DNA from: a virus
Length of the DNA: 23,414 nt
IMG/VR virus record: IMGVR_UViG_3300008999_000041
Span: 1-23,414 of that record
Reading direction: 5' to 3' (one strand)
Part shown: positions 13,861-16,771 of the stretch, piece by piece
Layout: every line of letters starts with the position of its first letter
Position numbering within the stretch: position 1 is the first letter of the stretch
Notes under the pieces: model-generated
The model's database searches: none
Told to the model about the DNA's origin: nothing
What the model saw: the letters and a program-made list of their open reading frames with translations, nothing else
Position numbers and translations under genes: made by a program

Positions 13861-14237
13861 TGAACCCTTTTGATTATGTAAATGCGATTAACTATTCTAA
13901 GAAAGATATTATGGTAACTCGTGATGACGAGAAAGCATATGCACCTTTTATGGTAAACCGATCATTATCATACTTTCCCGACACGGTAGTTATTGTTAAT
14001 GAGATGAACAAATTTCACCACCTAGACTCACGTCTACAATTCTCGTTTCTTATAAATATCATTAGGAAACGGAAACGTTTCTCTAAATGGGTAAAACCTG
14101 AATTAGAACATGACCTTGAGTCGGTGAAAGAATATTATGGATATAGTAATGAAAAGGCACGTCAAATACTATCCCTCTTATCACCTTCTCAAATTAAACA
14201 AATAAAAGAAAAGGTGAACAAAGGTGGAAGAAAGTAA
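13860..14237 (+). CDS. gp62: Clamp loader small subunit gp62
   Basis: gp62 is the single non-ATPase subunit of the gp44/62 clamp loader. The marine T4-like form is recognised by 'M-N-P-F-D-Y-V-N-A-I-N', 'M-V-N-R-S-L-S-Y-F-P-D-T-V', 'H-H-L-D-S-R-L-Q-F-S-F-L-I-N-I-I-R-K-R-K-R-F-S-K-W' (in two parts) and the C-terminal 'Y-Y-G-Y-S-N-E-K-A-R-Q-I-L-S-L-L'. At 125 residues it is shorter than T4 gp62 (187), as in marine relatives. ATG 13860 overlaps the dCMP deaminase stop, so the upstream start at 13836 is rejected. The order 62-regA-43 is as in T4, but gene 44 is separated by about 1.95 kb. Confidence 0.88.
   Translation: MNPFDYVNAINYSKKDIMVTRDDEKAYAPFMVNRSLSYFPDTVVIVNEMNKFHHLDSRLQFSFLINIIRKRKRFSKWVKPELEHDLESVKEYYGYSNEKARQILSLLSPSQIKQIKEKVNKGGRK
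14051..14058 (+). promoter_or_regulatory. Possible late promoter inside gene 62 (TATAAATA)
   Basis: An exact late box within the gp62 coding sequence. It could be chance in AT-rich DNA. No other late box is seen before the virion gene gp4 (15092), so it may supply late mRNA for regA through gp4. Confidence 0.35.
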
Positions 14238-14262
14238 CTTAGTCTCATGGAGTCCCTTGAGT

Positions 14263-14634
14263 ATGCTAGAGATAACTCTGGCAGAACCTGACGATTTCCT
14301 CAAAGTGCGTGAAACTCTAACAAGAATTGGAGTCGCATCACGCAAAGAAAACAAACTGTTTCAGTCCTGTCATATCCTCCATAAACAGGGACGATACTAT
14401 GTCGTTCATTTTAAGGAGTTGTTTATACTTGACGGCAAGAAAGCGAACCTAGAACAATCAGATATAGAAAGACGTAATACCATTGCGACACTTCTTTCTG
14501 ACTGGGGTCTAGTAGAGATTCAAAATAAGGAAGTCGCAGTAGACTGTGCTCCACTACGACAAATTAAGATTATCGGATTCAAAGAGAAAGATGAGTGGGA
14601 GTTATGTCCCAAATATAATATCGGAAATAAGTAG
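14263..14634 (+). CDS. regA: RegA translational repressor
   Basis: RegA binds ribosome sites of many early phage mRNAs, including clamp and clamp-loader messages and its own, and blocks translation. From ATG 14263 the 123-residue protein matches T4 RegA (122) almost line by line: 'M-L-E-I-T-L-A-E-P-D-D-F-L-K-V-R-E-T-L-T-R' (M-I-E-I-T-L-K-K-P-E-D-F-L-K-V-K-E-T-L-T-R in T4), 'F-Q-S-C-H-I-L', 'Y-Y-V-V-H-F-K-E-L-F' and 'K-D-E-W-E-L-C-P-K-Y-N-I-G-N'. The longer GTG start at 14224 overlaps gp62 and adds 13 residues with no counterpart, so it is rejected. Only a weak TTGAG precedes the ATG, which suits an autoregulated start. Confidence 0.95.
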   Translation: MLEITLAEPDDFLKVRETLTRIGVASRKENKLFQSCHILHKQGRYYVVHFKELFILDGKKANLEQSDIERRNTIATLLSDWGLVEIQNKEVAVDCAPLRQIKIIGFKEKDEWELCPKYNIGNK

Positions 14635-16229: not shown

Positions 16230-16235
16230 AAAAAC

Positions 16236-16264
16236 TTGACTTTATAAGTTAAAAATGTTATATA
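16236..16264 (+). promoter_or_regulatory. Sigma-70-type promoter of hsp20
   Basis: TTGACT (16236-16241), 17 bp, TATATA (16259-16264), extended -10 TGT. The predicted start at 16271 is the first base of hairpin I of the hsp20 leader. The leader is about 84 bases, the longest of the promoter-linked leaders I could place directly before a gene in this window, except that of the intragenic promoter at 17015. Confidence 0.65.
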
Positions 16265-16270
16265 TAGTAG

Positions 16271-16354
16271 TGTCACAATAATGTGACAACCGTAGGAATG
16301 CCGATAATCGGGTTCCTATTCATCTTGCTAAATTAATATAGGAGATAAAGCGAC
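16271..16354 (+). promoter_or_regulatory. Three-hairpin hsp20 leader, ROSE-like RNA thermometer candidate
   Basis: Hairpin I: TGTCACA 16271-16277 with TGTGACA 16282-16288. Hairpin II: TAGGAA 16293-16298 with TTCCTA 16313-16318, plus an inner CCGA/TCGG stem. Hairpin III: AUCUUGCUA 16322-16330 pairs with UAGGAGAU 16339-16346. It uses all eight 3' bases, one U-G pair and a single bulged G (16327), and hides the Shine-Dalgarno AGGAG (16340-16344). UUGCU opposite the ribosome site with a bulged G is the hallmark of ROSE thermometers of small heat-shock genes. Confidence 0.6.
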
Positions 16355-16771
16355 ATGACAAATCTAAAAGTAGGTAAAAATCTATTCCCACGTTCCGCAT
16401 TTATTGGTTTCGACCATTTGTTCAATGAACTGGAATACGCAACCAAACACGCCAATGACCATTATCCGCCTCACAACATAGTGAAGTTAACGGAGGATGA
16501 GTTCTTAATTGAGGTCGCAGTTGCGGGATTCAAAGAAGATGAACTAAATGTAGAACAGAAAGAACGCTCATTGACCATTAGTGGTTCACATGAGTCTAGA
16601 GACCGAGAAGTAATACATCGTGGTATATCCACTAAGGCCTTTAGGAGACAATTCAGACTTTCTGAGTATGTCCTAGTATCTGGTGCTTCACTCAAAGACG
16701 GTATCCTTGCAGTTACGTTGAAGTTAGAAATCCCACAAGAGAAGCAGCCTCGTAAAATTAAAATTTCATAA
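16355..16771 (+). CDS. hsp20: Small heat-shock protein Hsp20 (IbpA-like)
   Basis: This 138-residue alpha-crystallin-type chaperone holds unfolding proteins in solution. The central domain runs from about residue 40: 'D-E-F-L-I-E-V-A-V-A-G-F-K-E-D-E-L-N-V', 'L-T-I-S-G', 'F-R-R-Q-F-R-L-S-E-Y-V' and 'A-S-L-K-D-G-I-L-A-V-T-L' (the G-x-L signature). The C-terminus ends 'K-I-K-I-S', an I-x-I oligomer motif. IbpA-like Hsp20 genes are common in marine T4-like phages and are thought to support capsid or tail protein folding. It has its own promoter and a structured leader that looks thermosensitive. ATG 16355 is ten bases after AGGAG. Confidence 0.93.
   Translation: MTNLKVGKNLFPRSAFIGFDHLFNELEYATKHANDHYPPHNIVKLTEDEFLIEVAVAGFKEDELNVEQKERSLTISGSHESRDREVIHRGISTKAFRRQFRLSEYVLVSGASLKDGILAVTLKLEIPQEKQPRKIKIS

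Follow-up and report, generated by a model that had tools for sequence, protein, structure and literature searches.

ROSE elements block the Shine-Dalgarno (SD) sequence through imperfect pairing with a U(U/C)GCU motif that leaves a conserved G bulged, and warming melts this hairpin but leaves the upstream one folded (PMC3669281, PMC9450479). The characterised elements that carry the U(U/C)GCU motif give a 3-8 fold induction from 25 to 42 C (PMC3669281). Among viruses, hsp20 is a core gene of the T4-like cyanophages, being present in 16 of 16 genomes in one survey; its product, whose role is unsettled, has been proposed as a contributor to capsid scaffolding (PMC3037559). The literature that we searched on phage small heat-shock proteins (sHsps) mentions neither an RNA thermometer nor the leader, and our search of open-access papers turned up no previous description of ROSE elements in phages. 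Here we analysed a fragment of 23,414 bases from a T4-like marine phage (the window) and propose that the leader of its hsp20 gene is probably a ROSE-type RNA thermometer that controls the translation of phage Hsp20. Structure, conservation, covariation and specificity for hsp20 can be read directly in the sequences, and from these we infer the opening by heat and its effect on translation.

The replication genes of the window are T4-like, and its nearest isolate is phage C48C1 (Kyanoviridae), with a DNA polymerase 65% identical and an Hsp20 58% identical to those of the window. A gap of 125 nt separates hsp20 from the preceding cupin/JmjC-like ORF, and the features of this region are collected in Table 1. 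An earlier note on this DNA had described three consecutive hairpins between positions 16271 and 16355, the last of them pairing a UUGCU-containing arm with the whole SD arm except for one bulged G and one U-G pair, and had recognised in this the geometry of a ROSE element. All three hairpins are present, every coordinate given for them is correct, and hairpin III pairs as described, in the order A-U, U-A, C-G, U-A, U-G, bulged G16327, C-G, U-A and A-U; UUGCU occupies positions 16325-16329 opposite AGGAG, with the U-G pair beside the bulged G. The U(U/C)GCU motif, the bulged G, the occlusion of the SD and the sHsp context are thus all found in this leader and support the ROSE reading. The number of hairpins, three in the window and two in most relatives with an HSP20 gene downstream, falls within the two to four expected of ROSE elements, and the leader folds more stably than its dinucleotide shuffles (z = -3.1), only 1 of 200 shuffles being equally stable. 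In Rfam, the best match of the leader was ROSE_3 (RF02523), which scored 29.3 bits (E = 1.7e-4 in a scan of 221 bases, E = 4.4e-6 over the whole window with that family alone) at positions 16292-16360, but neither this score nor that of the top phage leader scanned (39.9 bits) reached the gathering cut-off of 43 bits for RF02523, and we therefore file the leader as ROSE-like and not as a member of that family. Matches over the leader to S774, mir-944 and snoR126 were discarded, being AT-rich and far under their own cut-offs.

Table 1. Positions of the hsp20 leader, its hairpins and the neighbouring features in the window
Feature	Position	Strand	Description
regA (RegA)	14224-14634		Pfam E 3e-44; near hsp20
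Promoter-like block	16235-16266	+	CTTGAC 16235-16240, 18 nt, TATATATA 16259-16266; resembles a T4-type late box
Hairpin I	16271-16288	+	UGUCACA/UGUGACA; optional; probably at the 5' end of the transcript
Hairpin II	16292-16319	+	AU(G)CCGA..UCGGGU apex, G16300 bulged; four covarying pairs
Hairpin III, anti-SD arm	16322-16330	+	AUCUUGCUA; ROSE motif UUGCU, bulged G16327
Hairpin III, SD arm	16339-16346	+	UAGGAGAU
Spacer and start codon	16347-16357	+	AAAGCGACAUG; AGCGA able to replace the SD as partner of UUGCU
hsp20	16355-16771	+	138 aa small heat-shock protein; Pfam HSP20 E 3.4e-17

Relatives of the locus were gathered by their Hsp20 protein and not by their leader, in five IMG/VR scans that used Hsp20 queries from divergent phages (a cyanophage, a pelagiphage and a methylophage, all T4-like, and the 55-kb pelagiphage HTVC115P) and yielded 352 loci. 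Among the distinct phage hsp20 leaders, numbering 207, 202 have YGCU just 5' of the SD; 636 other genes at these loci served as controls, and 42 of them show the pattern (p ~5e-144, a value uncorrected for relatedness, so that it overstates independence). When 208 leaders were aligned on the motif, UUG was found in 117 and UCG in 91, and the bulged-G layout was kept across phages; one step outside the motif, 139 leaders have a C-G pair, 53 a G-C pair and 10 a U-G pair, and further in the pair is U-A in 160 and A-U in 35 (the inner pair). The search pattern itself imposes G, C and U in YGCU and AGG in the SD, and their constancy is by itself no evidence. The element was found in pelagiphages, a methylophage, rhizobial jumbo phages and the cyanophages P-SSM2, syn9 and S-ShM2, and among 24 named phage records UYGCU lies opposite the SD in 19, including, besides these three cyanophages, C48C1, Melnitz, HTVC115P, HTVC008M, S-RSM4 and the rhizobial jumbo phages Phosso and Atu_ph07. 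Three further phages carry variants that keep the structure (UUGCC over GGGAG in S-CREM2, UUGCG in Callisto and CUGCC in SCTP-2), and the layout is weak in the leader of S-TIM61. Hairpin I, on the other hand, was ruled out as an essential part, as it is missing beyond the closest relatives: about 17 distinct close relatives have it, with compensatory changes (UGUCAC/GUGACA, GUGAGAA/UUCUCAC, GUGGGAA/UUCCCAC), and none of the rest.

Some individual records call for comment. In S-SSM4 the element and the SD point to an ATG located 5' of the annotated GTG, and in S-CAM3 the annotated hsp20 start is probably misplaced, too far downstream, the leader not being scorable. Four relatives of HTVC008M (L342, L344, L347 and L349) have no YGCU and present instead AACUGUCU 5' of GGAGG, where pairing with the SD is still possible with a mismatch at the G. 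The hsp20 genes in MG065691, MG065686, OR851202 and AFYI01000003 (labelled Campylobacter/Salmonella phage) are about as similar to the query as is the hsp20 of a Salmonella genome, and these records possibly include host or plasmid DNA.

For the analysis of covariation we anchored 137 distinct leaders, with ungapped arms, at two places, the core of hairpin II (ATGCC..GGGT) and the motif of hairpin III, and scored pairs of columns by a G-test with average-product correction against a null that keeps the tree and the substitutions (this was done with our own script, modelled on R-scape, and not with that program). A plain MAFFT alignment of the 37 window-group leaders, which gave no significant covariation and in which stem columns were visibly misaligned, was replaced by this anchoring. 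Exactly five pairs had E < 0.05 in the 137 leaders, all of them within the structure, four in hairpin II and one in hairpin III, and a null built on the Hsp20 protein tree returned the same five pairs as that built on the leader tree. Each covarying pair of hairpin II has undergone 17-28 changes of state on the leader tree and 26-42 on the protein tree, and three of these pairs remained at E = 0.0025 in a thinned set of 56 leaders. The pair in hairpin III, which alternates between C-G, G-C and U-G, had E values of 0.0025 to 0.005 in the full set but only about three changes, and E = 0.135 in the thinned set; little covariation is to be expected in this hairpin, since the SD arm is itself constrained. 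Alignment cells were paired in 89.8% of cases against 33-54% in slid registers (alignment A2 having been fitted to the structure and A1 not). The earlier note had held that a lack of covariation, or the absence of the hairpin III pairing in close relatives, would speak against a thermometer. Close and distant relatives alike have retained the pairing, and covariation is strong in hairpin II and amounts in hairpin III to one significant pair with few independent events.

We trained a covariance model on 34 leaders of the window's group and applied it to loci outside its training set, where it gave 84 matches (E up to 10) in 285 kb of held-out sequence, nearly all directly 5' of hsp20. Cyanophage leaders scored lower, with 23 of 25 matches at hsp20, and in whole phage genomes the strong match was single in each genome where one was detected, and located at hsp20. 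At the strong-match threshold the model gave no match in HTVC115P, HTVC008M, S-RSM4 and four further genomes, in whose leaders the layout is visible by eye or, for some, appears in the anchored set. This specificity bears on the possibility that the hairpin is the site of a phage translational repressor such as RegA, setting the timing of hsp20 in infection rather than sensing heat. Although regA lies nearby in the window and precedes hsp20 in several cyanophages, the model finds the element at no other gene, either of the window or of other phage genomes, and the leader matches bacterial sHsp leaders in detail, which makes a RegA site highly improbable. The new points in these comparisons, as far as sequences can tell, are the occurrence of the element in viruses, its specificity for hsp20 and its presence before nearly every phage hsp20 gene sampled.

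Hairpin III is not the minimum-energy fold of the window leader as calculated with ViennaRNA. In that minimum-energy fold UCAU and UUGCU pair with AGCGA and AUGA, leaving the AUG occluded and the SD in a loop, and its energy is about 2.3 kcal/mol better than that of hairpin III at every temperature tried. The repressed state in the clade of the window might then be this AUG-hiding fold (UUGCU/AGCGA), with pairing of the SD being secondary, and the leader would still be a thermometer but with a geometry other than that of ROSE. Of the 37 window-group leaders, 22 could adopt the AUG-hiding fold, but none of the 53 cyanophage and 55 pelagiphage-group leaders could, and in these pairing of the SD is kept; the energy model that favours the AUG-hiding fold does not account for the special contacts that G makes in ROSE helices. 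We consider such a geometry improbable and read the AUG-hiding fold as a side feature of one clade, since cyanophage and pelagiphage leaders cannot form it. The probability of an open SD (ViennaRNA) did not differ between hsp20 and control leaders from 10 to 42 C (p 0.09-0.16), with p = 0.048 at 50 C, and SD-opening probabilities (10-50 C) are used here neither for nor against the thermometer.

The main rival to the thermometer is autorepression by Hsp20. In E. coli, IbpA binds and represses its own ROSE-bearing mRNA, an activity that depends on Arg93 together with an aromatic amino acid at position 34, Lys being no substitute for Arg93 (PMC10474464). By analogy, the phage leader may be mainly an operator to which surplus Hsp20 binds in its own 5' UTR, repressing translation until unfolded proteins titrate Hsp20 away, so that temperature would act only indirectly. 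Consistent with this, most phage Hsp20s retain Arg at the site equivalent to Arg93 and Tyr or Phe at the second site, and the sequence of hairpin II is conserved beyond the needs of a mere scaffold. The Hsp20 of the window, however, has Lys at that site (GISTKAF) and so lacks the Arg required of an IbpA-type autorepressed sHsp, and the same Lys is found in 26 further distinct Hsp20s from its group; in E. coli this substitution puts an end to repression. Whether the protein has Lys or Arg, the RNA element is preserved intact, which favours a role independent of that residue. We judge autorepression unlikely to be the main role of the leader, and it may coexist with a thermometer.

Just 5' of the ROSE-like element, most phage hsp20 leaders have a TATA(A/T)ATA box. 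With up to one mismatch allowed, this box occurs at -110 to -45 in 36 of 37 window-group, 44 of 56 methylophage-group and 30 of 54 cyanophage leaders, and in 18 of 219 control genes. The hsp20 gene probably has, then, a phage promoter of its own, and we infer that its transcription starts after the TATATATA box. Most close relatives also carry CTTGA 17-18 nt 5' of the TATATATA box, and it is missing from some relatives (L020, L026, L027 and L046); CTTGA and TATATATA together could alternatively be a sigma-70 or an alphaproteobacterial heat-shock promoter.

The nearest bacterial sHsps found, setting aside four probably viral MAG contigs (L360-L363), are alphaproteobacterial, and in many of their leaders, too, UYGCU precedes AGGA. 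ROSE_3 scored above its cut-off in 7 of 349 sampled Pseudomonadota genomes, and the leaders read among these share the hairpin II apex and CUUGCU..AGGAGA; our covariance model gave two matches in 240 alphaproteobacterial genomes, in a tight search where absence carries little weight. The joint acquisition of gene and leader is the simplest account, and hsp20 and its leader were probably taken over together from proteobacterial sHsp genes. The sHsp leader of an uncultured PS1-clade bacterium (L436, upstream of 996), GGATGCCATTAAGGGTCC .. AACTTGCTTTAAAAGGAG, closely resembles phage leaders and may point to a bacterial source or to a transfer. The MAG Rhodobacteraceae Water_Bin34 (G016; L454, L455, L456) has eight model matches on separate contigs, several of them before a divergent phage-like hsp20, and the bin probably holds many phage contigs.

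Taking the leader as a thermometer, the SD would be held at normal temperature in the imperfect helix of hairpin III, with its U-G pair and bulged G, and little Hsp20 would be made. On warming, hairpin III would loosen and the ribosome would bind, with hairpin II acting as a stable scaffold and hairpin I as an optional extra in the clade of the window. The element would move with hsp20 among unrelated phages and, as no host protein would be needed, could function in proteobacterial and cyanobacterial hosts alike. We lean, by a small measure, towards a wider view in which heat-gated translation is near-universal for phage sHsps, a proteobacterial cassette of hsp20 plus ROSE having spread through unrelated phages, including those of cyanobacteria, such that ocean phages would generally sense temperature in infection and make the chaperone mainly when the host cell is under heat stress. 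A ROSE element before hsp20 would imply a need for the protein that scales with heat stress, as for bacterial IbpA, and the role of hsp20 in ocean phages becomes directly testable in cultured phages. If true, a family-wide RNA temperature sensor would be present in very abundant marine viruses, with a bearing on infection under warming.

Placing the leader among known systems, the window and bacterial ROSE_3 have in common a hairpin with an AUGCCGA..UCGGGU apex and a bulged G, followed by a CUUGCU/AGGAGA hairpin and then by an sHsp gene, whereas the window is viral and A+T-rich and all phage leaders scanned fall under the curated cut-off. The two-hairpin ROSE-like thermometers of Pseudomonas ibpA (PMC3669281) resemble it in their leader of about 60 nt, their stable first hairpin, their second hairpin, where U(U/C)GCU covers the SD, and their unpaired AUG; they differ in that they lie on a bacterial chromosome and their heat response has been measured, and the window has an extra third hairpin at the 5' side. 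The E. coli ibpA leader, ROSE_2 (RF01832), has UCGCU over AGGAG and an sHsp gene next, as in the phages, but its upstream hairpins are different and phage leaders give no match to RF01832. Temperature-responsive 5' regions of phage mRNAs are known from lambda cIII and from the fourU thermometers of SPbeta blyA (PMC4166951, PMC10586365), although these have other structures and genes, are not ROSE-like and have no tie to hsp20, and cIII opens at low temperature. Finally, the hsp17 thermometer of cyanobacteria (PMC4477652), the phylum of the cyanophage hosts, likewise masks the SD in an sHsp leader, but it does so with one hairpin interrupted by a 1x3 bulge, and its start codon, too, lies in a stem, whereas cyanophage leaders present the layout of UYGCU and hairpin II.
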